Below are positions 3,460 to 25,229 of a stretch of DNA of 42,268 bases, piece after piece (the stretch's first letter is position 1; every line of letters begins with the position of its first letter). The notes below the pieces were generated by a model. It saw only the letters and a list, made by a program, of their open reading frames with translations, was not told the origin of the DNA and ran no database searches. The DNA comes from a virus, in the IMG/VR virus record IMGVR_UViG_3300042979_000002, positions 1 to 42,268 of that record, one strand, 5' to 3'. A program made the position numbers and the translations under genes.

Positions 3460-4430
3460 TCTCCCCCTTCCTTCGCGGCGGTCGATTTCAGGGCGGAGAG
3501 ACCGATTCCAACTGCAACCTTGGCCTCATACAAGGCCTCGGCGCTGCTCTCCGTGCGGTAGAATGAACCCATTGGTCCACGCGTTACGTTGATGCGGTCG
3601 CGCGCCTTCTCCAACGCCTCGACCGCGATCCGCACCCTGTCGTCATCCTGTGCGGGGACGGGAGCCGCGTAGAGGGGGCGAAGCCGGAAGCGAGGGTTCA
3701 GGGCTTCATCGTCAAACCAAGCATGACGAACGCCCGACGTGTGCCACTCCATGTCGTCGCCATGACGCCATTGCCACGCCACAGCCTCCCCAGCCGTTTC
3801 GGCGGCAGGGGCGGAAGCCATTGCACCAGCAACAAAAGCCGCCCGCTCTTTCGTCTGGTCTATGCCGGGATATTCGTAACAGGCGCGATCACTGGCAGAG
3901 AGCGCTACTGCATCGGCGACAGGCACACACGCCAAAACGTCGTCAGGCGGGAAGTCGGTCGCGCTGCTGTGCTGGCCTCCCGAGGCGACTGGGGCGGGGC
4001 GGATCAGGGCTTCGGCTTTGGTCTCGTATCGGGCGTTCTGGACGGACCAGACCGGCGATCCTGTCGCGCATTCGATCGCAGCGTTTGGCGTCCAATACCA
4101 GCCGTCCGCGAAGTCCTTAACCAGATACCCGCCCGGTCCGCGCGTCTCTCCGCTCGGTTGGGGGCGGGACGGATTGTGCGCGACCGTTCGATGGCAGCCC
4201 TCGACAGTCGGATCGGGAATGATCTCTAGGAACGGCGCGCTTTCTTCGTAGGCTCGACGCAGTTCGTCATCCCGCTCCGACCCGCTCGCTTCGACCGGAG
4301 CGGTGGGGGCGAGGCCGCAGAAGGTGCACGCTGCGTCACGCTCAGCTTTGAACGCGCCGCAAGCCTTGCACTCGCGGTTCACGTCATCCCCGCTCAGCGG
4401 GCCGGGTGTGGGGGCTTGGGTCGCGATCAT
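3456..4430 (-). CDS. Hypothetical protein with N-terminal zinc ribbon (324 aa)
   Basis: A modular phage protein. Near the N-terminus CKACG...CTFCG (about residues 21-38) makes a four-cysteine zinc ribbon. A mid region has GWYWTPNAAIECATGSPVW. A later Ala-rich region contains AVAWQWRHGDDMEWH and PRFRLRPLYAAP, a pattern seen in phage early-region proteins built from shuffled short domains. The last 60 residues are helical. I cannot name a function. It is coupled by overlaps to the C5 methyltransferase upstream and to a small gene downstream. Confidence 0.7.
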   Translation of the reverse strand: MIATQAPTPGPLSGDDVNRECKACGAFKAERDAACTFCGLAPTAPVEASGSERDDELRRAYEESAPFLEIIPDPTVEGCHRTVAHNPSRPQPSGETRGPGGYLVKDFADGWYWTPNAAIECATGSPVWSVQNARYETKAEALIRPAPVASGGQHSSATDFPPDDVLACVPVADAVALSASDRACYEYPGIDQTKERAAFVAGAMASAPAAETAGEAVAWQWRHGDDMEWHTSGVRHAWFDDEALNPRFRLRPLYAAPVPAQDDDRVRIAVEALEKARDRINVTRGPMGSFYRTESSAEALYEAKVAVGIGLSALKSTAAKEGGE

Positions 4431-5620
4431 GCTGCGGCTTTCTGATGATAGACGGCCGAGAGCGCTGCCTCCGTGCGGAGGATGGCCCGGCCTATTGCTT
4501 CTGGGATTTGGGGGAGGACGGCGTCGCCGAACGCTTCGACGATGAGGCTAGCGGCAGACGTCCCGCGAGGACCGCCGACCGCAATGCGCTGCTCAGCCAG
4601 CCAGGCGGGTAGCCCATCATCCAGCCGTATGTGACGGGCAAGGTCATCGAGGGACCAGTCAGCCCTGTGTTGGAGAGCAGCGCCGCGATCTGACGGGCGT
4701 AGGCCCACTTGTCCGGCGAGCGATCGGTCATCGCCCCGTCCAGAACCGCATCCATCGTTGGCGATTTCCGCTTGTCGTAGGCTGGAGACCAGCGATCCAT
4801 CCGCTTGTCCCGCTTGGTCGGCGTCGGCAGGGCTTCCTGCGCCATTCCCGCATGGCGATTGTTCTGGTTCGTCAGTTGAGCCAGCACGTCGCCCCGAAAG
4901 CCCCGATCTGCGTCCGTCTTCCGCGGCGTGGCGAGGATCTTCCGAAATGGATACGTCGAACCGGCCCCCCATCCCGCTCCGTCCTTCATGCCGTCCGAGG
5001 CCATAGGCGTCGGCAGCATCGTGCCCTCGGCAATGATTGCCCACGGCTTGCAACTCTCCCACTTCTGCATGGACGGAGCGCCGAAGTTGGCCTTGGTTGT
5101 GGGGGTGTGCATCAAGCTGCTCGACGTCACAGCCGATGACCCAAGAGCGCTTCCGCTCATGATTGGCACCGATGTTGTCGCCACCAACCACGACCGCCCA
5201 GCAGGCGTAGTCGAGGCCTTCCAACTCACCGAGAACCCGGTCAGCGCCGCGAGTTCGGAGGTTAGCGCTGTTCTCAAGAGCGAACCAACGAGGGCGGACC
5301 TCTCCGATGATGCGGACGGCTTCGAAGAAGAGGCCCGACCTTTCGCCGTCGACGCCTTTGCCCTTGGTGTTGGCGCTGCTGATGTCTTGGCAGGGGGGTG
5401 ACCCAACGACGATGTCGGGAAGAGTTCCAAGGTCGGCAAGCAGTCGTTCGCCGGTGAGCGTCCGGACATCGTCATAGATCAGCACTCCGGGGTTGTTCTC
5501 GGCGTAGAGGGCGCGGCGCCAGTCGATCCATTCGCAGGCGGCCACAGTTTCAAATCCGGCGCGGTGCAGGCCGAGCGACCATCCGCCCGCCGCAGCGCTG
5601 AATAGGTCGAGCACCCTCAT
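4427..5620 (-). CDS. DNA (cytosine-5)-methyltransferase
   Basis: A 397-residue C5-cytosine methyltransferase that moves a methyl group from SAM to cytosine in a specific site. Motif I is LDLFSAAAGGWSLGLHRAGF at the N-terminus. Motif IV is GSPPCQDIS with the catalytic Cys about residue 77. Motif VI is LENS, about 115. A motif VIII-like ERKRSW follows, then a target-recognition region. Motif X is GDAVLPQIPEAIGRAI, about 365-380. All key parts are present, so it should be active. No cognate restriction gene is adjacent, so it is probably a solitary phage methyltransferase used to evade host restriction or mark phage DNA. It overlaps both neighbours. Confidence 0.92.
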   Translation of the reverse strand: MRVLDLFSAAAGGWSLGLHRAGFETVAACEWIDWRRALYAENNPGVLIYDDVRTLTGERLLADLGTLPDIVVGSPPCQDISSANTKGKGVDGERSGLFFEAVRIIGEVRPRWFALENSANLRTRGADRVLGELEGLDYACWAVVVGGDNIGANHERKRSWVIGCDVEQLDAHPHNQGQLRRSVHAEVGELQAVGNHCRGHDAADAYGLGRHEGRSGMGGRFDVSISEDPRHAAEDGRRSGLSGRRAGSTDEPEQSPCGNGAGSPADADQAGQADGSLVSSLRQAEIANDGCGSGRGDDRSLAGQVGLRPSDRGAALQHRADWSLDDLARHIRLDDGLPAWLAEQRIAVGGPRGTSAASLIVEAFGDAVLPQIPEAIGRAILRTEAALSAVYHQKAAA

Positions 5621-6521: not shown

Positions 6522-6948
6522 GGGTGGCCTCGCTGGATTGGGCCGCGATCCACTCGTCTGTGCCGGGGATGTCCTCGTAGTTGGACAGATCGAGGATGTT
6601 GCCGGTGGGCTTTTCCTTATCGACGAGGGCTTTCCAGAGGGCGTTGATCTGGTCGCAGAGAGGCTGAAGCTCGGTCTTTCCGAGGTTGGCCTCAGCAGTG
6701 AAGCCGTCCTCATTGGACTGATCCTCGTGCCGACCGTCGATGTGATCGGCCAAATCCTGCCAGTCGTTGAAAATCTCGTCCCAGGCACCGCGTGGATAGC
6801 CGCGGGCGATCTTGAACGGCGCTCCATCGTCATAGGCGTCACGGCCCATCTCGATGGCGACGTCTCTGCTGGCGAACGGTCCGTTCCACACGTCGTGGCG
6901 TGTCTCGTGATACCAGTTTGCGGGCGATGTGATGGTCTGGTCAGACAT
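6514..6948 (-). CDS. Hypothetical protein (144 aa)
   Basis: Unrecognised acidic protein beginning TITSPANWYHETRHDVWNGP. The middle is rich in Asp/Glu and aromatic residues (WDEIFNDWQDLADHIDGRHE), and the C-terminus has LPLCDQ-like helices followed by NILDLSNYED. No known motif. Its ATG overlaps the methyltransferase stop (6948-6950). Coupling to the methyltransferase may mean co-expression, but a shared function is only a guess. Confidence 0.7.
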   Translation of the reverse strand: MSDQTITSPANWYHETRHDVWNGPFASRDVAIEMGRDAYDDGAPFKIARGYPRGAWDEIFNDWQDLADHIDGRHEDQSNEDGFTAEANLGKTELQPLCDQINALWKALVDKEKPTGNILDLSNYEDIPGTDEWIAAQSSEATHA

Positions 6949-8033
6949 CAGGCGGCGACCTCTATGGCTTGGAACATGCCCTGCTCGGTCGAGATGCGAC
7001 GGCGCGCGATCTCGGCGTATTCGGGGTTCAGTTCGATGATGGTGCAGTCGAGGCCCATGCGGTCAGCGACCAGGGCCGTGGTGCCGGCGCCGCCGAACGG
7101 GTCGAGGACGGTGCCGCCGGCGGGGCAGCCGGCCTGAAGGCAACGCTCGGCAAGCTCGGGCGGAAACGTGGCGAAGTGGGCCTCACTGAACGGACGCGTG
7201 GCGATGGGCCAGACCTGAACGGGCGCCGGTTCATAGTTGCGGAGGTTCCGGCCCTCGCCGCGCGGATAGGCGACGTCTTCACGGTCGGGGCGATGTGTCC
7301 CCATGCTCTGGCCTGGGTGAGCGGCCGCGCGCTTGCTGTCCTCACGTTTGAAGCTGTCGCGGCGGCGAGCACCGCCAACAGCTTTCATGGTGCCGTTCGT
7401 CTTGGCGCCGCCGTTCGCGCGGTGAGACCCTTCCTGAGCCTCGACATTCTGGGCCAGGCGAGAGATCGACGCTTCTGCGAGACCCTGCCGCACCGCATCC
7501 GCATCGTAGTGATAGCGAGGCGCGCGGCTCAGCAGGAAGATCTTCTCGTGCGAAGTCGCCGGCCGGTCGTTGATGCTCTCGGGCATCGGGTTCGGCTTGG
7601 CCCAGATGATCTCCGAGCGAACCCACCAGCCCGCTTCCTGCAGGGCGATGGCCAAGCGGTTCGGGACCATGCAGAGGTCTTTCGCCTTCAGCACGCCCTG
7701 GATGGTCGAGAACGGCTTGTCGCGGAACGTCCGGTCATCCGTGCCCGCCGCTTTCGTGTCAGCCGCGCTGCGACCGTTCGGCGAGGTGGCGTAGCAGTCG
7801 CCGTAGTTCAGCCAGAGGGTGCCCGTCGGCTTGAGGACGCGGCGAACCTCTTCGAAGACCGCAACCATGACGGTCAGGTGCTCGCCGAGCGTCGGCTCAA
7901 GGCCGATCTGCCCGTCAACGCCATAGTCGCGAAGGCCCCAATAGGGCGGCGAGGTCACGACGCAGTCCACCGAGTCCGCTGGCATTTCGCGCAGCCGGTC
8001 ACGGACGTCACCGATCAGGATCGTCACGCCCAT
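6948..8033 (-). CDS. Beta-class DNA methyltransferase (N4-cytosine or N6-adenine)
   Basis: A 361-residue SAM-dependent amino-methyltransferase. The catalytic motif IV, TSPPYWGLRDYG (about residues 28-39), precedes the SAM-binding motif I DPFGGAGTTALVADRMG (from about 311), the order that defines the beta class. The SPPY form is compatible with N4-cytosine or N6-adenine methylation, and I cannot tell which. The middle (about 180-270) is Arg/Lys-rich and should contain the target recognition region. It is a different chemistry from the C5 enzyme two genes downstream. An HNH nuclease gene ends three bases before its start, so a small restriction-like pair is possible but unproven. Confidence 0.92.
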   Translation of the reverse strand: MGVTILIGDVRDRLREMPADSVDCVVTSPPYWGLRDYGVDGQIGLEPTLGEHLTVMVAVFEEVRRVLKPTGTLWLNYGDCYATSPNGRSAADTKAAGTDDRTFRDKPFSTIQGVLKAKDLCMVPNRLAIALQEAGWWVRSEIIWAKPNPMPESINDRPATSHEKIFLLSRAPRYHYDADAVRQGLAEASISRLAQNVEAQEGSHRANGGAKTNGTMKAVGGARRRDSFKREDSKRAAAHPGQSMGTHRPDREDVAYPRGEGRNLRNYEPAPVQVWPIATRPFSEAHFATFPPELAERCLQAGCPAGGTVLDPFGGAGTTALVADRMGLDCTIIELNPEYAEIARRRISTEQGMFQAIEVAA

Positions 8034-10230: not shown

Positions 10231-10815
10231 CTAGGCGGCCTCGTGCTGAGCGTGGTTGTCGTTGGCAGACCCGATGTGGGACCAGTTCTGGCCCCTCTTG
10301 ATCTGTTGGATGGTGGAGCGGTTGACGCCGTAGTCACGGGCGATTGCCGCCGGAAACTCGGACTTCAGCCGCTCACGGATCGTCGGAATGTCGGCTTCTG
10401 TTAGGATCGCGCGCCCGTTTTTGGAGCCAGGATGCGACACGTGAGAGCCGTGTCGAAGAGCGTCCTGGACGTTCTCGGAGTGCGTGCCCCATCGGAGGTT
10501 GGCCGGCACATTGTTCGTGCCGTTGCCGTCGCGATGAAGGCTTTCCATTCCCGCCGGTCGTGGCCCGACGAACGCAGCCAGAACCAGGGCGTGAACGAAG
10601 TGGCGCTGTTGCTCGCCCAGCTTAGACAGTTGGACGACCATATGGCCGTCGACGGTCTTGTTGAGCCGCCTGACGCGCCCCGCGACGTGTCGGATGATTA
10701 CGCCCGTCCGGCGGCGTTCACGGACTTGCCGGTCTAGTCCCCGCACGCGGCCGAGATCGCTGACCTCATAGAGACCTTCGTAGCCAACAACGGCCCTCCA
10801 GCTTTCCAGGGTCAT
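10231..10815 (-). CDS. HNH homing endonuclease with NUMOD4 domain
   Basis: A 194-residue free-standing homing endonuclease. An N-terminal NUMOD4 motif (SWRAVVGYEGLYEVSDLGRV) leads to an HNH core, VHALVLAAFVGPRPAGME then LHRDGNGTNNVPANLRWG. A C-terminal HTH (IARDYGVNRSTIQQIKRGQNW) completes the usual order. Such enzymes cut alleles lacking them and spread into phage genomes. It sits exactly between the RecE-like and RecT-like genes, overlapping the former by ATGA and leaving three bases to the latter, so both flanking genes stay intact. Confidence 0.92.
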   Translation of the reverse strand: MTLESWRAVVGYEGLYEVSDLGRVRGLDRQVRERRRTGVIIRHVAGRVRRLNKTVDGHMVVQLSKLGEQQRHFVHALVLAAFVGPRPAGMESLHRDGNGTNNVPANLRWGTHSENVQDALRHGSHVSHPGSKNGRAILTEADIPTIRERLKSEFPAAIARDYGVNRSTIQQIKRGQNWSHIGSANDNHAQHEAA

Positions 10816-11765
10816 GCTGCCGCTCCCCGCCGCTCGTTGTCATTCGCGCTCGCGGCCTGGATTTCGAGTTCCTCGTCGATGCGGCGAGCCGCGTACGCCG
10901 GCAGAGACAAATATTCCGCGTCTTGCTGGGCACCGGGGCCGGGCCACTCGCCGCTGTCCAGGCAGCGAGCCATCGTGCGCAGCGCCGACCGGACCTGCAT
11001 GCGGCCCCGTTCCAGGTCGTCGGGCGTCAGGGTGGTGACGCGGACGCAGAACGGCGCCGTCTTCTCGACCCAGACCAAGGTGAACGACTGCATGGGGATG
11101 CCGAGCACGGCCTCGGAAGCCATGCCGACCAGCGCGCCCTGCATGGGGTAGTCGTAGGACGACAGCGACTGCTCCAGAGCCTTGGTGGCGACGCTGACGG
11201 TCGTCTTCAGGTCGGCATAGTCGCCAGAACTGTTCGGGATCACGTCGGGGCGGCTCTTGAGCCAGATGCCCGTCTCTTCGTCCTTCCAGATCAGCGACCG
11301 CTCAACATGGCCGTCGAGGATGCCCGCCTTCACCACGGGGTGGCGGCCCAGGCTTTCGGCCATGCCGGTGACGGTCACTAGATCATCGGGCGTGATGACG
11401 GTGCGGCCCATGCCGATCTGCAGGTCGCGCCAAGCCTTGGCGTCCTTGGTGCGCCAGTCCGTCCATTCGTCGGGCCGGATCGCGAAGTCCTGTTCCAGCC
11501 CTTCTCGGCCCTCCAGCAGCAGCTTGTGCGCCAGGCGACCGACGGCGAACGCGGGCCGGTCCTCTTGCGGCAGCCGGTTCGGGTTCAGCGGCGACCGGGC
11601 CCAGAAATGCGCCGGGCTTTCGGCCCAGATCGTGCGCAGACCAGACGACGACACCGACGGGCCAACGCAGATGCTGGAGTGATAGGCCTCGATGGGAATG
11701 GCGTAGCAGCCGGGTTCGCTGATCTTGCCGTTGGAGGGGAGCGCGAGGGGGTTGTGCAGGGTCAA
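10812..11765 (-). CDS. RecE-like PD-(D/E)XK exonuclease
   Basis: A 317-residue nuclease of the exodeoxyribonuclease VIII/DUF3799 type. Near the N-terminus, YHSSICVGPSVSSSGLRTIW precedes the His of GRLAHKLLLEG. The metal-binding core is SRPDVIPN followed by YADLKTT, the D...(D)xK pattern near residues 175-190. Known members resect double-stranded DNA to make 3' tails for a RecT annealing partner, which is encoded nearby. It overlaps the next upstream gene by ATGA. The function is well supported; the exact family is from pattern memory. Confidence 0.85.
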   Translation of the reverse strand: MTLHNPLALPSNGKISEPGCYAIPIEAYHSSICVGPSVSSSGLRTIWAESPAHFWARSPLNPNRLPQEDRPAFAVGRLAHKLLLEGREGLEQDFAIRPDEWTDWRTKDAKAWRDLQIGMGRTVITPDDLVTVTGMAESLGRHPVVKAGILDGHVERSLIWKDEETGIWLKSRPDVIPNSSGDYADLKTTVSVATKALEQSLSSYDYPMQGALVGMASEAVLGIPMQSFTLVWVEKTAPFCVRVTTLTPDDLERGRMQVRSALRTMARCLDSGEWPGPGAQQDAEYLSLPAYAARRIDEELEIQAASANDNERRGAAA

Positions 11766-14595: not shown

Positions 14596-14915
14596 CACGC
14601 AGCCCTCGCCATTGCGGCCGGCGGCAACGGATCGTTCTCGGCCTCCCGCGCGTCGCGGATGGCCCAAGCCAAGGCGTTGCTGACGGGGATCAACAGGCCA
14701 GGGTCTTCGGCGACGGCCATTTCGGAGGCCAGGCGCATCAGCTCTTGCGTGGCCTGATCGACGGTCATCCACCGACGGGTGCGACGGTCCAGAACCTTCG
14801 GCCCCTCAACGATAAAAATCGGGCGCTGGGTAAACGGGACCATGCTCGGGTCCAGATCAGCGGCGGCAGCGATGTTCGCCAGCACGCCGGGAAGGATTGC
14901 GGAGATCGGGCGCAT
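14595..14915 (-). CDS. Hypothetical protein (106 aa)
   Basis: Small protein starting at ATG 14915, which overlaps the stop of the NlpC/P60-like gene. Everything upstream in this frame is Arg-rich shadow. Sequence features are an N-terminal helix (SAILPGVLANIAAAADLDPS), FIVEGPKVLDRRTRRWM, and a helical C-terminus (LAWAIRDAREAENDPL). No family recognised. It is tightly coupled on both sides. Confidence 0.65.
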   Translation of the reverse strand: MRPISAILPGVLANIAAAADLDPSMVPFTQRPIFIVEGPKVLDRRTRRWMTVDQATQELMRLASEMAVAEDPGLLIPVSNALAWAIRDAREAENDPLPPAAMARAA

Positions 14916-15379
14916 CAGGCTGCGGCCTCGATCAAGGCGTTGTCGTTTTCGGCAGGGATCGCATAGGTGAAGACGCCAACCAGACGATCGGTCCAGGACC
15001 GGCCCAACCAGCACTGCGACGCCGCCTTGCCGAACTGACAGGAGATCATCTTGGGTTCGGCACCGCCCGTCTCGGACACGACGCCAGCATGGAAGCCGTC
15101 GCGGCCCATGTCGAAGACCAGCACGTCGCCGGGCTGAGCCGCAGCGAGGGTCGTCAGCTTCATGCCGCGATTGAAGAACTGGCCCATGGCCATCCAGCGA
15201 TCGCGCGGACCCCAGCCCGGCACGAACGACGGAGCCCGGCCGCCGAAGCATTGGGCGATGAAGGTCCAGCCGTTGAAGCAGTCAGCCTGGACCGGCGACG
15301 AGACGTAGGCGTGACCGATCAGCGAGCGCGCGGTTTCAAGCGCGGCGGATCGGTCGAGGTTGGCGGGATGGATAGACAT
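14915..15379 (-). CDS. NlpC/P60-like fold protein
   Basis: A 154-residue protein resembling papain-fold NlpC/P60 or amidase-like proteins. A Cys in QADCFNGWTFIAQCFGG (about residue 34) is in the usual nucleophile place, and GDVLVFDMGRDGFHAGVVSE (about 83-102) supplies the expected beta strand and catalytic His. Known members cut peptidoglycan peptides or form tail-tip components. The gene is unusual in an early operon, far from the tail or lysis genes. It has no signal peptide, so a cytoplasmic role or late release by lysis would be needed. Catalysis is inferred from motif spacing only. Confidence 0.6.
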   Translation of the reverse strand: MSIHPANLDRSAALETARSLIGHAYVSSPVQADCFNGWTFIAQCFGGRAPSFVPGWGPRDRWMAMGQFFNRGMKLTTLAAAQPGDVLVFDMGRDGFHAGVVSETGGAEPKMISCQFGKAASQCWLGRSWTDRLVGVFTYAIPAENDNALIEAAA

Positions 15380-17470: not shown

Positions 17471-17554
17471 TGTGTGATTGTGCACATGCTCGCACTCAAC
17501 GGACCGTGCATTTACGCATTGACTTACTGTGCATTCCTGCACATTCTGCCCGTC
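17471..17554. promoter_or_regulatory. Repressor/cro switch: operator dyads and divergent promoter
   Basis: The gap holds several GTGCA half-sites. Palindrome GTGCAC is at 17480-17485. The imperfect CGTGCATTTACGCATTG is at 17505-17521. The full 16-bp dyad TGTGCA-TTCC-TGCACA is at 17528-17543. Rightward, TTGACT (17519-17524) and a weak CATTCT (17542-17547) stand 17 bases apart around the dyad. That -10 position ends seven bases before the Cro ATG. I infer that a repressor and Cro compete here; binding is not proven. Confidence 0.75.
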
Positions 17555-17788
17555 ATGCAGAACGTCGCCCCCGAAGTGATCGAAGTCGAGCAGCGCGCCA
17601 AGGATGCGGGCCTCACCATGGCGTCCATCCTGTCGGAGGTAGGCGTCGCTCAGTCCACGTGGTGGCGCTGGCGGAAGGGCGGGGTCGAGCCTCGCCTCGG
17701 AACTCTGCGGGACGTGGCTCATGCCCTTGACCGCCGGATCGCGCTGACCGCCGCCAACGACGACACCGCCACCGAGAAGGCGGCCTGA
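17555..17788 (+). CDS. Cro-like HTH transcriptional regulator
   Basis: A 77-residue protein with an XRE-type HTH: AGLTMASILSEVGVAQSTWW then RWRKGGVEPRLGTLRDVAHAL (about residues 17-60). Position just across the operators from the S24 repressor and size argue for a Cro analogue that represses the repressor promoter and commits to lysis. There is no Shine-Dalgarno before ATG 17555, and the predicted promoter -10 ends seven bases upstream. A leaderless message is therefore likely. A basic surface and Trp-rich recognition area (STWWRWRK) suit DNA binding. Confidence 0.85.
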   Translation: MQNVAPEVIEVEQRAKDAGLTMASILSEVGVAQSTWWRWRKGGVEPRLGTLRDVAHALDRRIALTAANDDTATEKAA

Positions 17789-18913: not shown

Positions 18914-18928
18914 ATGATGGAGGGCCAG

Positions 18929-19597
18929 ATGGCCAACGACAACGACGCGTACGAGCCCATCCAGGGCACGGTCGGGAGCATCCCGAACGAACCGCAGGAC
19001 ACGAACGGCCTGCCGAGCCATGACGAGATCCGCATGGCTGCGCACGACCAAGTCCAGTGGAACCTCAAGCGCAAGGCCCTGAACGACCAGATCAGCGCCT
19101 TCCGCAAAGGCCTGAAGGCCAAGGGCCACATTCTCGGCAAGCTCGACGACGAGGTCCGCAAGCTTGAATGGACCCCCGAGGAGTACAAGGCCGACCGCGA
19201 GGCCTCCGACCACTACGCCCAGGCCATGGCCCAGCCGGTCGGCACGCAGTTGGAACTGTATGGCACCGACGCGACACCTGATCCGGTTCGCATCCAGCTC
19301 AAGTGGCGCCAGCTGGGTGTCAAGCACGGCATCGCCGGCATCGGTTGGGCGAACCAGCCGCCCGAAGACTGCCCGTTCGATTGCGCTCAGTCCTACGGCG
19401 AAGGCCACGAGGAAGGCCAAGGCACCGTCCGCCGCGCCTTCCAGACCCGTCTGGAACAGGCCAAGGCGGCCGCCGACGCCGCGCGAGAGGGTTCTGAAGA
19501 CGATGACGACCAGATCGACATCGAAGACGCCGTAAACGCCGCCAGCGCCGCCAATGATGATGGCGACGACAGCGACCATTCGCGGGAAGCTGCCTGA
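18929..19597 (+). CDS. Phage protein with RMF-like C-terminal segment
   Basis: A 222-residue protein started at ATG 18929, chosen because GGAGGG is six bases upstream. The N-terminal half is charged and helical (AAHDQVQWNLKRKALNDQIS, then RKGLKAKGHILGKLDDEV). The middle has WANQPPEDCPFDCAQSYGEG, a pattern like ribosome modulation factor or related phage proteins of alphaproteobacteria. The C-terminus is an Asp/Glu-rich disordered tail. RMF-like segments bind ribosomes in stationary phase; whether this copy does so is unknown. Confidence 0.65.
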   Translation: MANDNDAYEPIQGTVGSIPNEPQDTNGLPSHDEIRMAAHDQVQWNLKRKALNDQISAFRKGLKAKGHILGKLDDEVRKLEWTPEEYKADREASDHYAQAMAQPVGTQLELYGTDATPDPVRIQLKWRQLGVKHGIAGIGWANQPPEDCPFDCAQSYGEGHEEGQGTVRRAFQTRLEQAKAAADAAREGSEDDDDQIDIEDAVNAASAANDDGDDSDHSREAA

Positions 19598-20034
19598 TGT
19601 CGGGGCTGGCCTTCACCATTCCGGGCGACCCTCGCGGTAAGGGCCGGCCCCGCGCCACCACCATCGGTGGACACGCCCGCATGTTCACCGACAGCAAGAC
19701 CGCCAGCTACGAGAACCTCGTGAAGCTGGCGGCTTCGCAAGCCTTGGGCTCGCGCCAGCCCTTCGACGAGCCGCTGGCAATGATCGTCACGGTTCGAATG
19801 ACGCCAGCGGCCTCCGACAGCGGCAAGAAGCGCGCCGCTAAGCTCGCAGGCTCCATCCTGCCGACGAAGCTTCCTGACCTCGACAACGTCGTGAAGGCCG
19901 TCCTCGACGGCTGCAACAAGGTCGCCTTTCGCGATGACGCCCTGGTCGTCCGCCTCGTCGCCGAGAAGGCCTACGCCGAGACACCGGGCGTCGACGTCAT
20001 GATCAATCCCGTCCAACTCCGAGCCGCAGCATGA
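19597..20034 (+). CDS. rusA: RusA-family Holliday junction resolvase
   Basis: A 145-residue nuclease of the RusA type. The N-terminus FTIPGDPRGKGRPRATT and the later LPDLDNVVKAVLDGCNKVAF, with FRDDALVV, are the recognised core. The Asp residues of DLDN and RDD and a following Lys form the metal-binding active site. It cuts four-way junctions formed during phage recombination and replication. It overlaps the previous gene's stop by one base and the GcrA-like gene's start by four bases. Confidence 0.93.
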   Translation: MSGLAFTIPGDPRGKGRPRATTIGGHARMFTDSKTASYENLVKLAASQALGSRQPFDEPLAMIVTVRMTPAASDSGKKRAAKLAGSILPTKLPDLDNVVKAVLDGCNKVAFRDDALVVRLVAEKAYAETPGVDVMINPVQLRAAA

Positions 20035-20774
20035 ACATCTTCGCCAAAGTCAGCCGCGCCGAGTTTACCCGCCTGTGGGAAGCGGGCCTGAGCGGAACCC
20101 AGATCGGCAACCGCCTCGGCATTTCCGAGACCAGCGTCCGCAGCATTCGCAAGAGCTTCGGCCTGGAAAGCCGGCGTCATGGCAATGCGCTGCACACGCC
20201 CGAGATTGTCGAGCACGTCAAACGCATGTGGCTGGAAGGCAAGTCCGCCAGCAACATCGCCCGTCTGATGGGTCCGACCTGGACCCGCAACATGGTCATC
20301 GGCATGGTTCATCGGCACGGGTTGAGCGAGGGTCGGAAGACAAACGGAAAGCCTAGCGCTGCTGCCAAGACCGCGAAGGTGAAGCCCCTTCGCGAGCCTC
20401 GCCCGCCGAAGCCTCCCAAGCCGCCGAAGGCCGTCTCTCCCCAGCCCTTCGACCTATCCAAGTCCAAGTCCGACAGCACCGCCGAGCAGCGCGCCGAGAA
20501 GGCAGCCGCCGGCCGCCTGATCATCAAGCGGACGATCGACGCGGCGAACGACAACTCGGTCCCCATGGTCGGTCGCAGCTTCAGTCAATGCGCCTGGCCC
20601 GTAGGGAAACCGGCCCGCGCCGCCGACCAGCTGGCCTGTGGCGCTCCGATCTATCAGGGCATCGAGAAGTGCTCCTACTGCCTCGACCACGCCCAGCGCG
20701 CTTTCGCCCGCGACATCACCCAGCCGAAGCCCAAGGAGAACCTTGAGCGTGCAAACCGTCGGTGGGCCGCCTGA
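20031..20774 (+). CDS. GcrA-family cell-cycle regulator with tandem N-terminal HTH
   Basis: A 247-residue GcrA-like protein. Residues about 57-100 match the GcrA DNA-binding helix motif (IVEHVKRMWLEGKSASNIAR, then TRNMVIGMVHRHGLS). Residues about 185-222 match the C-terminal sigma-70-binding module (QCAWPVGKPARAADQLACGA, KCSYCLDHAQRAF), with conserved Cys/His. Ahead of these, residues 8-48 form a second HTH of similar style (LWEAGLSGTQIGNRLGISET). The 100-180 linker is Lys/Pro-rich. In Caulobacter GcrA acts with RNA polymerase at GANTC-methylated promoters. A phage copy could redirect host or phage transcription; this is inference. Confidence 0.9.
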   Translation: MNIFAKVSRAEFTRLWEAGLSGTQIGNRLGISETSVRSIRKSFGLESRRHGNALHTPEIVEHVKRMWLEGKSASNIARLMGPTWTRNMVIGMVHRHGLSEGRKTNGKPSAAAKTAKVKPLREPRPPKPPKPPKAVSPQPFDLSKSKSDSTAEQRAEKAAAGRLIIKRTIDAANDNSVPMVGRSFSQCAWPVGKPARAADQLACGAPIYQGIEKCSYCLDHAQRAFARDITQPKPKENLERANRRWAA

Positions 20775-21127
20775 TGTCCCGTCCCCAACGCCGCGACTTC
20801 TCCGACCGCGTCCTGACCCAGATCGACAAGGACCGCCGCACCGCCGCTCAGAAGGCGCGTGACGCCAAGGTCAGGACTGATGCGCGCATGGCCACCGCCG
20901 TCACCATTGCGGGCATCAGCGACGCTGACCTAGTGCTGCATTGCGATGGCGTGCTCTCGGCCGTGAAGGACGCCCTTTGCGCCCGTCTGGATGCCGAGGG
21001 CGCTGCGTCCACCTTCGGCCGCTTCGCCCACGTCTCGATCTACACCGGGCCGATCCGGCGCGACGCCGCTGAGCAGGCCTTTGCCAACCTGACCAAGGCC
21101 GCCAACGATGGGGGCCGCGATGAATAG
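20774..21127 (+). CDS. Hypothetical protein (117 aa)
   Basis: Unrecognised protein starting at ATG 20774, overlapping the GcrA-like stop. The N-terminus is strongly basic (RRDFSDRVLTQIDKDRRTAA), followed by VTIAGISDADLVLHCDGVLS and VSIYTGPIRRDAAEQAFANL. Length and composition suggest a small DNA- or protein-binding accessory factor. No known motif. Confidence 0.65.
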   Translation: MSRPQRRDFSDRVLTQIDKDRRTAAQKARDAKVRTDARMATAVTIAGISDADLVLHCDGVLSAVKDALCARLDAEGAASTFGRFAHVSIYTGPIRRDAAEQAFANLTKAANDGGRDE

Positions 21128-21305
21128 GCGCGACATCGTCGATCTTGAACTGCACTACGCCCGCATGGTCCGGCGCGAGGCCAAGGCCCGTGCCAAACAG
21201 AACCCGGCCGCCGCCGAGCAGCTGAACCGCTTCGCCGATGCCGCCATCCAGCGCGTCGAGGCGATCAAGTGCGGCCCCCTCTTCGACACGGAGAAGGCGG
21301 CATGA
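21120..21305 (+). CDS. Hypothetical helical protein (61 aa)
   Basis: Small protein that overlaps the previous stop (ATGAATAG at 21120-21127) and the next start (ATGA). It is one long Ala/Arg-rich helical segment (MVRREAKARAKQNPAAAEQL, NRFADAAIQRVEA) with a Cys near the end. No family recognised. It is part of the tight replication block. Confidence 0.6.
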   Translation: MNRRDIVDLELHYARMVRREAKARAKQNPAAAEQLNRFADAAIQRVEAIKCGPLFDTEKAA

Positions 21306-22042
21306 GCAGGCTGGAGTGGCATCCCCGCTATCATCGTGATGCCCTGGACGGCATGGAGCGCATGCCTCTGGAAGAGCGCGGCGCTTACACGACTCTCTTG
21401 GACATGATGTACGACCGCGCCGGCCCTGTGCCGGATGAGGATCGCATGCTGGCGGGCCAAATGCTGGTGTCCGTCAGGGGGTGGAAAATCATCCGTGAGC
21501 GCCTGATCACAGCGGGCAAGATCGAGGTCATCGACACCCAACACGGCCCCGCCCTGATCAACGGCCGCGTACGTGAAGAGCTCGAAAAACAGACGAAACG
21601 TTCGCGAAAAAACGCCGAGAGTGGCGCGAAAGGCGGGCGAAACAAGCCGATGATGCCGCCAAAAGTCATTGGAAACAATGACAACGATGAAGCGAACGCT
21701 TTAGCGAAATCCAAGCTAGAGACAGAGACAGATACAAAGGGTTCCGAAGATAAATCTTCGGACGCTCGACGCGTCGTGTCGATCGATCACGATGCCGAGG
21801 CGTGGAGACAGGCGGTCACCCTCCTAACCAGCCAGGGCGGTATGACCCAGGCCAAAGCGCGACCGTTCTTCGGTAGGCTGATCTCGCTCCACAAGCTCGA
21901 ACCCCGCGACCTCCTGCCCTCTCTCGCCAAGGCGACCGTGAGCGGCACCCAGGATCCGCAGAGCTACCTCAGCAGGGCTGCCGAAGCCGTTGCTCGCCGG
22001 AGGAACGAGGACGCGAAGCCCAAACGGGTCGGGTGGGTGTGA
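21302..22042 (+). CDS. DUF1376 replication protein
   Basis: A 246-residue protein. The N-terminal DUF1376 domain is clear (LEWHPRYHRDALDGMERMPL, then GAYTTLLDMMYDRAGPVPDE, GRVREELEKQTKRSRKNAES). A polar low-complexity linker (about 105-160) follows. The C-terminal DnaT/DnaB-loader-like helical domain (AWRQAVTLLTSQGGMTQAKA, GRLISLHKLEPRDLLPSLAK) ends it. In phages such proteins act at the origin and load the helicase. Here the helicase is encoded next. Its linker-coding DNA carries two perfect hairpins and GCGAA repeats, as in lambda O, where the origin lies inside the initiator gene. Confidence 0.85.
   Translation: MSRLEWHPRYHRDALDGMERMPLEERGAYTTLLDMMYDRAGPVPDEDRMLAGQMLVSVRGWKIIRERLITAGKIEVIDTQHGPALINGRVREELEKQTKRSRKNAESGAKGGRNKPMMPPKVIGNNDNDEANALAKSKLETETDTKGSEDKSSDARRVVSIDHDAEAWRQAVTLLTSQGGMTQAKARPFFGRLISLHKLEPRDLLPSLAKATVSGTQDPQSYLSRAAEAVARRRNEDAKPKRVGWV
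21592..21762 (+). other. Candidate replication origin inside the DUF1376 gene
   Basis: This stretch is A-rich compared with flanking genes. It contains CGAA-type repeats (for example 21593-21600, 21604-21610, 21626-21631, 21637-21641, 21692-21697, 21704-21708). Perfect hairpins are GTCATTG-GAAA-CAATGAC (21665-21682) and TCCGAAGA-TAAA-TCTTCGGA (21743-21762), with a smaller AAGCG-AA-CGCTT at 21690-21701. The position in the linker of a lambda-O-like gene supports an origin. Function is inferred. Confidence 0.5.
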
Positions 22043-22320
22043 TGGCGCACAAGACCGACAAGGCCCGAGCGGCGGGCATCAACCCCGGAAACGGCGCGGA
22101 TTACCGGACGACCTGTCCCAAGTGCTCAGCCAACCGGAAAAAGAAGAAAGACCCGTGCCTCCACGTCACCGTCCAGTCGGACGTCATCCTCGTGAAATGC
22201 TGGCACTGCCCCTACGAAGAAGGATTTTTCGATGACCGTGATGGACATCCTCGACGCTCGTGGTCTGGACGTGGAACTGGCGTCGCGCCTCGGCCTGAAC
22301 GGCGCGCCAGGTGGTGGTGA
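22042..22320 (+). CDS. Primase zinc-ribbon protein, overlapping the helicase frame
   Basis: A 92-codon frame beginning at ATG 22042, overlapping the DUF1376 stop. Residues about 25-60 are a T7-primase-type zinc ribbon: CPKCSANRKKKKDPCLHVTV then KCWHCPYEEGFF. This domain normally heads the T7-gp4 type primase-helicase. After about 22231 the residues become a shadow of the helicase frame (Arg/Gly-rich). The zinc ribbon is thus separated from TOPRIM and helicase by a frame change, at GGATTTTTC. It may be a separate subunit or reach the next frame by a frameshift. Confidence 0.75.
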   Translation: MAHKTDKARAAGINPGNGADYRTTCPKCSANRKKKKDPCLHVTVQSDVILVKCWHCPYEEGFFDDRDGHPRRSWSGRGTGVAPRPERRARWW

Positions 22321-23710
22321 AGTCCTGCAGATCGACTTCCGGCGCGGCGATGATGTCGTCCGGCGAAAGTTCAAGCGCATGGGCGAGGTGCCTGAGGGCG
22401 CGCCCCGCTACTGGCAGGAGCCGAAAGGCGGCGCCAAGATCGCTTGGAACGAGGATGCGCTGAAGGATCAAAGCCTGTCTGGCCCTCTGGTGATCACCGA
22501 GGGCGAGATCGACGCCGCCACGGCGATCCAGTGCGGCTTCCTGCGCACCATCAGCGTGCCTGACGGTGCCCCGCCACCAGGCGAGCGGTCGGCGGAGGAC
22601 CTAGAGGCCAGCGCCAAATACGACTGGTTGCGTGAGCTCAAGCCCTTTCTGTCACGCGAGGCTGTGCCCGAGGTGATCCTCGCGACCGACGGCGATGAGA
22701 ACGGGGCGGCACTGCTGCAAGACCTGTCGATCCAGCTGGGCCGGTTTCGCTGTAAGTTCGTGACTTATCCTAAGGCGCGCGACCCAGAGGCACGCGGCCG
22801 GCCACGTCTGAAAGACCTGAACGAGGTCCTTCAGGATTATGGGCAGAAGGGCGTTATCGAGACCCTTAACCGCGCGCAATGGATCAAGGTTGAGGGCGTC
22901 CACCGAATGAGCGAGCTGCCGCCGCTCCCGAAACAGGTGATCTATGAACCGCGCCCCAGCCGGTTCGCCAACTTCCGCCACAACTTCAAGGTCCGGCTGG
23001 GCGACTTTTCAGTCATCACCGGCACGCCAGGCTTCGGCAAGACCAGCTTCGCCAACGACGTGATGTGCGGGATCGCCCAGGACAATGACCTGACGATTGC
23101 ATGGGCGTCATTCGAGCAGGAGCCTCAGCGCGACCACAAGCGGAACCTTCGTTCTTGGTTTATCGGCTTTCCCGACCATCGCGCGAAGCCCGAGCAGGTC
23201 GATGCAGCCGATCGCTGGATCGACGAGCGTCACGTCTTCATCGTCCCAAGCGAGGACGAGGATGCTGATCTCGAATGGCTCCTGGACAAGATGGAGGCCT
23301 CGGTCGTTCGCTACGGCGCCAGCATCATCATGATCGACCCATGGAACGAGCTGGAGCACAGCCGAAAGCACGGGGAGACAGAGACAGAATACACCGGTCG
23401 GGCGATCCGAGCGCTGAAGCGGTTCGCCAAGGCTTTTCGGGTCCACATCTGCGTTATCGCCCACCCCACAAAGTCGGTGAAGGACAGCGACGGCAAGTAC
23501 AAGATGCCGACCCTCTACGACATCGCGGGCTCGGCGAACTGGTACAACAAATGCGACTTGGGTGTGATCGTTCATCGTGAGACGGAGGAGACCACGCTGA
23601 TAAAGGTTCAGAAGAGCCGATATCACGAAACCATTGGAAAGCCTGGTGAAGTGCTGATGTCGTTCTCAACCGACGCGAGGCAGTTCATCGAGACGGAGAA
23701 AGTCGCATGA
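22232..23710 (+). CDS. T7 gp4-type primase-helicase (TOPRIM + DnaB-like helicase)
   Basis: A 492-residue protein. The TOPRIM part has VITEGEIDAATA (Glu90) and ILATDGDENGAALL (about 145-160). A RecA-fold helicase follows with Walker A ITGTPGFGKTSF (about 260-272), a Walker B-like IIMIDPWNEL, and a VIAHPTKS motif. The N-terminus lacks the zinc ribbon that the preceding ORF supplies in another frame. AAGGA stands nine bases before ATG 22232, so it can be started on its own. It should unwind phage DNA and, with the zinc part, make primers. The end overlaps the next gene by ATGA. Confidence 0.9.
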   Translation: MTVMDILDARGLDVELASRLGLNGAPGGGEVLQIDFRRGDDVVRRKFKRMGEVPEGAPRYWQEPKGGAKIAWNEDALKDQSLSGPLVITEGEIDAATAIQCGFLRTISVPDGAPPPGERSAEDLEASAKYDWLRELKPFLSREAVPEVILATDGDENGAALLQDLSIQLGRFRCKFVTYPKARDPEARGRPRLKDLNEVLQDYGQKGVIETLNRAQWIKVEGVHRMSELPPLPKQVIYEPRPSRFANFRHNFKVRLGDFSVITGTPGFGKTSFANDVMCGIAQDNDLTIAWASFEQEPQRDHKRNLRSWFIGFPDHRAKPEQVDAADRWIDERHVFIVPSEDEDADLEWLLDKMEASVVRYGASIIMIDPWNELEHSRKHGETETEYTGRAIRALKRFAKAFRVHICVIAHPTKSVKDSDGKYKMPTLYDIAGSANWYNKCDLGVIVHRETEETTLIKVQKSRYHETIGKPGEVLMSFSTDARQFIETEKVA

Positions 23711-23895
23711 CTATCGCCAACGACGGCACATACCGCGTTCTCGCTGATGGGCTGATCAGCCAAGCCGAACAACTGCCCCGAAAACACCCCGCCGTTCAGT
23801 GTCTGCGAGACGCCGCCGCGTCGCTGTTGGATGCCGACATGCACCTCTCAGCGGCCAATGATGCCGGCCCGGACCGAAAAGGCGCAGCCGCATGA
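23707..23895 (+). CDS. Hypothetical protein (62 aa)
   Basis: Small protein overlapping both neighbours (ATGA at each end). It is helical (LADGLISQAEQLPRKHPAVQ, LRDAAASLLDADMHLSAAND). No family recognised. It is one of the accessory ORFs of the early-right operon, directly after the primase-helicase. Confidence 0.6.
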   Translation: MTIANDGTYRVLADGLISQAEQLPRKHPAVQCLRDAAASLLDADMHLSAANDAGPDRKGAAA

Positions 23896-24713
23896 GCAAG
23901 CAATCGAAACAGCGGGCCCGCCTCCGCAAGGGCCGCTACGCCAAGCCGTCCCCGCCCCGGATGATCGGGGCCAACGACAACCACCCGGCAGCGGTGAACG
24001 ACAACGCGGCGCCGGTGACGATTCGGGGCGTTCGGCTGACGCAGGGCCAGGCCTATCGCTTCGCCAAGGCCCAGGACGATCTGGCAAGCGAGAGCCTGGA
24101 GACGCGCCGCGCCGGTCACCGTGCTCTGGAACTTCTGGATGCCGAGCTGGGCGCCAAGGTGCTGGCGGACAATGTCGGTGACGCCTTGGAAGAGCGGCGG
24201 GGCCTCGAAGCCCTGCGCGGCATCGTCATCGACAAGTCGAATGTCGAGGGCGCCGTCGGTGCGCCGCGTATCGCCCGCGATGGTCTGGAAACCTTGCTGA
24301 CCGCCAACTCCATCAGCCGGACCCAGCACGCCGCCGGCCTGCTCTACCGCGCCGACTATGAGCGGATCGATCCTGAGAAGATGCTGACCCCGCCCCAGTT
24401 GGACCCGGAGAAGCTAAATGTCGTCCGCGGCGGCGACGGCTGGGACCACAAGCGCCGGGAGATCGAGGAACGGGTCTTCGGCATCCACCTCATGATCTGC
24501 GGCGTCGATGCGCCGACGGAGACGGAGCGTCGGGCCCTGCCCCGGCTGCCGCCAAATCACCCGGCCATGCGGGCGATCCATGCCCTGGTCGAGATCGCGG
24601 GAAAGGGGGCAAACCTCGGCGACATGACCAGCAGCGGATCGGTGAAGGCGCGCATCCGCGAGGACTTGATTTTCGCGCTGGACGCGTGCGCAATCAGCTA
24701 CGGCTTGGAGTGA
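23892..24713 (+). CDS. Phage protein with DUF6456-like C-terminus
   Basis: A 273-residue protein. The N-terminus is basic and low-complexity (KQRARLRKGRYAKPSPPRMI). The middle includes AARAGH-like helices and AGLLYRADYERIDPEKM. The C-terminus ends with KARIREDLIFALDACAISYG. The AGLLYRADYE and ALDACAISYG segments resemble DUF6456, a small alphaproteobacterial DNA-linked domain. Because it is the last real early-right gene before the late operon, a role as late activator or antiterminator is possible, but I cannot show it. It overlaps the previous gene by ATGA. Confidence 0.6.
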   Translation: MSKQSKQRARLRKGRYAKPSPPRMIGANDNHPAAVNDNAAPVTIRGVRLTQGQAYRFAKAQDDLASESLETRRAGHRALELLDAELGAKVLADNVGDALEERRGLEALRGIVIDKSNVEGAVGAPRIARDGLETLLTANSISRTQHAAGLLYRADYERIDPEKMLTPPQLDPEKLNVVRGGDGWDHKRREIEERVFGIHLMICGVDAPTETERRALPRLPPNHPAMRAIHALVEIAGKGANLGDMTSSGSVKARIREDLIFALDACAISYGLE

Positions 24714-25105: not shown

Positions 25106-25157
25106 CACCGGAAGTTTAATCGCGGACACACGCCAAGAGCGCAAGACGCGCCCGATC

Positions 25158-25187
25158 AGCCCCGACCCGCAACGGACGGGGCTTTTT
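25158..25187 (+). terminator. Intrinsic terminator of the early-right operon
   Basis: AGCCCCG (25158-25164) pairs perfectly with CGGGGCT (25177-25183), with a 12-base loop, and TTTTT follows (25183-25187). It faces rightward after the secreted-protein gene. It should block transcription into the terminase region unless an antiterminator acts. The remaining bases of the gap 25106-25229 hold no gene that I can support. Confidence 0.85.
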
Positions 25188-25229
25188 CGTGGGCGAAAGC
25201 AATGCGAGACCGTTGATCGGGCCCGGGCT

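Follow-up and report, generated by a model that had tools for sequence, protein, structure and literature searches.

A phage GcrA-family protein with a predicted second helix-turn-helix and a DNA-binding half exchanged between sister phages

GcrA serves as the model of a sigma-70 cofactor able to read DNA methylation. A phage gene that codes for a GcrA-like protein with an additional DNA-binding domain ahead of the usual one raises the question of which promoters such a protein would read and whether it keeps the contact to the polymerase. The gene studied here lies in a stretch of viral DNA of 42,268 nucleotides (IMG/VR record IMGVR_UViG_3300042979_000002), the whole of which is called the window. 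GcrA consists of a DNA-binding domain (DBD), a linker and a sigma-2-binding domain and promotes open-complex formation (PMC7403470), and the corresponding parts of the phage gene are the following:

20031-20774, plus strand: gcrA-like gene, 247 aa, ATG start overlapping the RusA stop codon (ATGA), matched by Pfam and NCBIfam
20031-20378, plus strand: DNA-binding half subject to exchange, codons 1-116, whose right breakpoint lies at about 20378/20379
20055-20156, plus strand: HTH1, predicted extra helix-turn-helix (HTH), residues 9-42
20199-20315, plus strand: HTH2, GcrA-type DBD, residues 57-95
20346-20570, plus strand: Pro/Lys-rich linker, predicted to be mostly unstructured (low pLDDT), common to the single-HTH alleles from codon 117
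20571-20771, plus strand: GcrA sigma-interacting module, residues 181-247

Judged by its sequence, the product of this open reading frame is a GcrA-family protein. The Pfam GcrA profile (PF07750) matches residues 56-228 with E=1e-23 and 84.9 bits against a curated cut-off of 26.9, a match that spans both the DBD and the C-terminal module, and in phmmer the solved Caulobacter GcrA 7ye1 was matched at 1.1e-11 over residues 56-244. The NCBIfam model for the "sigma 70 cofactor GcrA" (NF050816) covers residues 56-245 with 84 bits, far under its equivalog cut-off of 280, and the protein would thus be a member of the family and not an orthologue of the Caulobacter GcrA. Among 49 aligned GcrAs, R86, G91, R95, C187, C203, Y216, C217 and H220 are invariant. 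In an AlphaFold2 model built with 49 aligned sequences, HTH2 is composed of helices 57-68, 73-80 and 86-95 (pLDDT ~95), and the C-terminal module is compact (pLDDT about 91-94). The top Foldseek matches are 7ye1_G, from the Caulobacter GcrA transcription complex (probability 1.00, E=0.014), and 5yix_B, the sigma-interacting domain of GcrA in complex with sigma-70 domain 2 (probability 0.98, E=0.22, TM-score by target 0.64); these E-values are weak, as expected with small domains, and the ranking agrees with the sequence matches. A preliminary description of this DNA had placed a GcrA-like DNA-binding segment at about residues 57-100 and a Cys-rich GcrA module at the C-terminus, and both assignments were borne out, the borders of the first being off by a few residues at most.

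The typical GcrA layout, in which the N-terminus starts at a single DBD, is not that of the window protein, where about 55 extra residues are predicted to form HTH1. AlphaFold2 places its three helices at residues 9-17, 22-29 and 33-42 (pLDDT ~93), hence within the first 55 residues and to within a few residues of where the preliminary description had proposed a second HTH (8-48). In Pfam, HTH_23 was matched at residues 9-43 (E=1e-4) with 22 bits, below the threshold of 24.6. A wrong start codon as the source of HTH1 was rejected in view of the coupled ATG in two upstream contexts and by purifying selection: the ATGA overlap lies behind RusA in the window and behind an unrelated RuvC-like gene in the sister contig L002, and a comparison of the two over 52 codons gives a dN of 0.048, a dS of 0.91 and a dN/dS of ~0.05, which indicates purifying selection. 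The HTH1 region is therefore very probably translated from the coupled ATG. Since the diverged relatives L118, L119 and L124 also keep the tandem layout at equal spacing, HTH1 is, on the predicted fold, a real second three-helix HTH.

Regarding its origin, HTH1 can be aligned with canonical GcrA HTHs along 36 residues, better than shuffled sequences can, but an unrelated HTH, that of Gordonia phage Dmitri gp53, aligns better still, so that HTH1 may or may not stem from an internal duplication; the score against the GcrA DBD profile is weak. The profile of the CRISPR repeat-binding protein Cbp1 (NF040595) matches weakly across residues 11-103 (E=4e-5), its 23.7 bits lying well under the cut-off of 140 for membership. 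The structure models do not fix the orientation of HTH1 relative to HTH2, and none of the Foldseek matches of the HTH1-HTH2 models to two-HTH proteins was significant.

A second HTH appears to be rare among GcrAs. Five non-phage copies, taken from plasmid or chromid records and solved structures only (Caulobacter, Sinorhizobium, Cereibacter, C. rhizosphaerae and Methylobacterium), each possess one HTH, located at the N-terminus or close to it, and none ahead of the DBD, in line with the earlier statement that chromosomal GcrA is shorter at this end. Of 80 viral GcrA loci, nearly all have a start codon no more than ~20 codons from the DBD, and when profiles were used to look for a second HTH ahead of it, L081 was the only locus to show one; this survey was made with the canonical GcrA DBD profile and is hence biased toward canonical proteins. 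The L081 protein, encoded in the 2501 region at the contig end, has a diverged second HTH with a sequence distinct from the window allele. Scans of the genome collection found no relative of the tandem-HTH variant. Annotated GcrAs occur in several Caulobacter and Brevundimonas phages; the GcrA of Brevundimonas phage vB_BgoS-Bajun (L008), which bears the annotation "cell cycle regulator", has two GcrA-type HTHs and a sigma module, while in Rhizobium phage RHph_X2_24, as read from its sequence, the sigma module is joined to an apparently different N-terminal HTH. Several phages thus apparently altered the DNA-binding part of GcrA, and more than once. The giant Brevundimonas phages Bambus (L017, 742-1290) and Kikimora (L018, 757-1278) carry annotated GcrAs with an HTH and without the sigma module. 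In Caulobacter phage DMCA (L021), gcrA (1471-2112) is located ~900 bp upstream of an annotated adenine-specific methyltransferase gene (2983 onward).

The remainder of the window protein resembles GcrA to different degrees. HTH2 is matched by the PDB GcrA DBD 5yiu (E=3e-7) and keeps R86, N87, V89, I90, G91 and R95, as judged from conservation over the 49 GcrAs; because these conserved recognition-helix residues are retained, HTH1 may extend the GcrA site instead of replacing it. The sigma module departs further from the canonical protein, its GDP motif having changed to GKP/GTP and the F of FxFCG being lost, and its affinity for sigma may consequently have changed. Directly ahead of this module, all gcrA alleles contain the core AND of a motif, AAND[ND], that recurs in many unrelated window proteins, often near their ends (10231-10815, 10812-11765, 14915-15379, 17474-17788, 18914-19597, 20031-20774, 20762-21127, 23707-23895, 23892-24713 and others); the tripeptide AND occurs 13 times in window proteins, compared to 2.8 expected from shuffling.

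The most informative comparison is that with sister phages, in which the locus was found with the neighbouring genes as anchors. The ten proteins compared fall into four tandem alleles, T1 (window and L002), T2 (L118, L119), T3 (L124) and T4 (L127), and three single-HTH alleles, S1 (L003, L004), S2 (L115, on a contig shared with L123) and S3 (L125), all of which end in the sigma-contact module. L002 encodes the same tandem protein as the window (92% identical), while L003 and L004 have one ordinary GcrA HTH at the front and are nearly the same as the window from about codon 117 on, the sigma modules of the window and L003 being 97% identical. At the DNA level, the L002 and L003 loci match in blastn at 92.9% over 1147 bp up to the gcrA start codon and again, starting at codon 116, at 93.1% over 2334 bp, with no match between these flanks, that is, in codons 1-116. 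The flanks of the exchanged segment are about 91-94% identical between the tandem (L002) and single (L003, L004) alleles, and the right breakpoint of the window against its sisters is identical (20378/20379). For the difference between T1 and S1, recombination would be the natural reading of these sequences. Between T2 (L118) and T3 (L124), identity falls from 94% in the sigma module to 71% in the linker, 45% in HTH2 and 24% in HTH1, and here strong diversifying change is also possible. HTH1 is more variable than HTH2 between tandem alleles, at a spacing that is equal in T1-T3, and S1 and S2 are without the conserved N after R.

The genes around gcrA agree with the earlier placement of the locus between RusA and the replication genes:

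19597-20034, plus strand: RusA-like Holliday junction resolvase (PF05866, E=7e-31), upstream of gcrA
20762 or 20774 (start) to 21127, plus strand: conserved gene of 117-121 aa, the locus anchor in sister phages
21269-22042, plus strand: DUF1376/primosomal-type replication protein (PF07120, 2e-10; phrog_9327, 4e-16)
22232-23710, plus strand: Toprim and DnaB-like replicative primase/helicase (phrog_239, 9e-59)

Where the window has RusA, L002-L004 carry the unrelated RuvC-like gene, which in L003 (3462-3977) matches RuvC weakly; two analogous Holliday junction resolvases thus appear to be exchanged at one site. Further downstream, an intergenic block of 75 bp (25117-25191) shows 97-99% identity to two mosaic sister phages and 96%, over a slightly longer match, to a third. 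The block closes with a GC hairpin and a T run, is without a match in Rfam and probably terminates transcription of the early operon. The closest relatives of the terminase belong mainly to alphaproteobacterial phages (42-50% identity), together with some Aeromonas phages.

GcrA is tied to promoters with m6A-methylated GANTC sites. The window contains 23 GANTC sites, compared to ~222 expected under a first-order model (ratio 0.10), which makes GANTC the most depleted of the 16 five-base (NNxNN) palindromes, and three sister contigs are also sparse in it (15, 38 and 21 sites). This scarcity is consistent with hosts in which GANTC is methylated or avoided. Those sites that are left in the window are nearly all coding, and no clustering at phage promoters was found. 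YGAKTCG is the motif of GcrA sites, and only three of the 23 fit it. No repeated operator-like motif common to the window and the other tandem phage was found. The conserved HTH2 residues are kept, yet within the phage genome, to which this analysis applies, GANTC is depleted and not associated with promoters. The preliminary description had suggested that the fused protein might read other DNA sites while keeping the RNA polymerase contact; the sisters, which share the C-terminal half behind a different DNA-binding half, agree with a DNA-reading part that changes on a constant contact part. The targets of the protein may thus be GANTC promoters of the host or else phage sites with a different sequence, and its position in the early replication operon fits either. 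Two methylases are encoded in the window:

4427-5620, minus strand: C5-cytosine DNA methylase
6948-8033, minus strand: N6/N4 DNA methylase with an SPPY motif

The latter was considered as a phage-borne CcrM partner and rejected, since its score for CcrM is only 88 bits against 830 and its motif is SPPY.

Taken together, the gene product is best read, with a probability of roughly 0.6, as a phage sigma-70 co-activator with a bipartite DNA reader on a half that is swapped between sister phages. A co-activator of the GcrA kind would be made from the replication operon, probably early; by homology, its C-terminal module would dock on host sigma-70 domain 2 and aid promoter opening as in Caulobacter. 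HTH2 would serve as the GcrA-type reader and HTH1 would add a second DNA contact beside it, as suggested by the existence of free-standing phage proteins with two HTHs and no sigma module (Gordonia Dmitri gp53, Sulfitobacter pCB2047-A) and by the weak Cbp1 match; a longer or different site than that of host GcrA is then to be expected. With the DNA-binding half as a recombination module and the sigma-contact half retained, related phages could run different promoter sets, their own or those of the host, via the same polymerase handle. More tentatively, the locus may be seen as a specificity locus for activation, where DNA-binding halves, two-HTH readers among them, exchanged on a constant sigma-70 docking module would send the polymerase to phage-specific promoters.

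Other explanations have to be weighed against this co-activator. The protein might act mainly at methylated GANTC promoters of the host and hold the cell in a replicative state, HTH1 merely adding affinity, as has been proposed for gp222 of phage phiCbK (PMC3556154). HTH2 does keep the residues conserved across GcrAs, the gene sits within the replication operon, and the phage avoids GANTC, so that most targets that depend on GANTC would lie in the host; still, tandem and single alleles replace each other although their recognition helices differ greatly, which would be odd if the same host sites were read, and the conserved N is absent from the S1 and S2 alleles. We regard this explanation as unlikely.

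It is even less probable that the protein is an anti-activator that holds sigma-70 domain 2 or GcrA sites without activating and thereby blocks host GcrA. The diverged sigma module (GKP/GTP) would agree with such a competitor, and the phage sigma-binding regulators that have been reviewed are repressors, though they target sigma domain 4 (PMC7403470), but a bare sigma module would suffice for this task and a conserved two-HTH reader under purifying selection would not be needed. Similarly improbable is that HTH1 is a domain for protein contact or dimerisation, or a vestigial duplicate of HTH2, and no second DNA reader. Its alignment with canonical GcrA HTHs, the weak DBD profile score and its greater variability compared to HTH2 could be understood in this way, while purifying selection, a predicted recognition helix, the equal spacing in T1-T3 and the free-standing two-HTH proteins, which suggest a DNA-reading pair, argue for a reader.

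Natural alleles that combine one sigma-contact half with varied DNA-binding halves offer a means to ask which of the two halves determines the choice of promoters and whether the reading of methylation is replaceable. A phage-encoded GcrA has been described for phiCbK (PMC3556154) and is as such already known; the tandem, swappable DNA-binding half is new, no description of a two-HTH GcrA or of an exchange of its DNA-binding half having been found in a search of literature mostly from outside subscription journals.

Caulobacter crescentus GcrA (PF07750; PDB 5yiu, 5yix, 7ye1) shares with the window protein the GcrA-type HTH, the basic Pro-rich linker, the C-terminal sigma-2-binding module and the invariant Cys and His residues, whereas the window protein has an HTH of ~50 residues in front and a diverged sigma module, reaches 84 of the 280 bits of the orthologue model and is encoded by a phage, in an early replication operon. 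The phiCbK gp222 protein and its relatives are phage GcrAs with one HTH and a sigma module, but they belong to phages over 200 kb and no exchange of the DNA-binding half has been described for them. Bajun GcrA likewise has a pair of HTHs ahead of a linker and a sigma module; both of its HTHs are clearly GcrA-type, and residues 1-117 differ in sequence and spacing from the window protein. Cbp1 and the free-standing phage proteins also have two consecutive three-helix HTHs, but are without a sigma module, and the Cbp1 match is far under its cut-off. An analogous case is the swapping of immunity specificity in lambdoid repressors, the swap proposed here being one for activation through sigma. The alleles also suggest that domain exchange, by which phages diversify repressors, serves them to diversify an activator as well.
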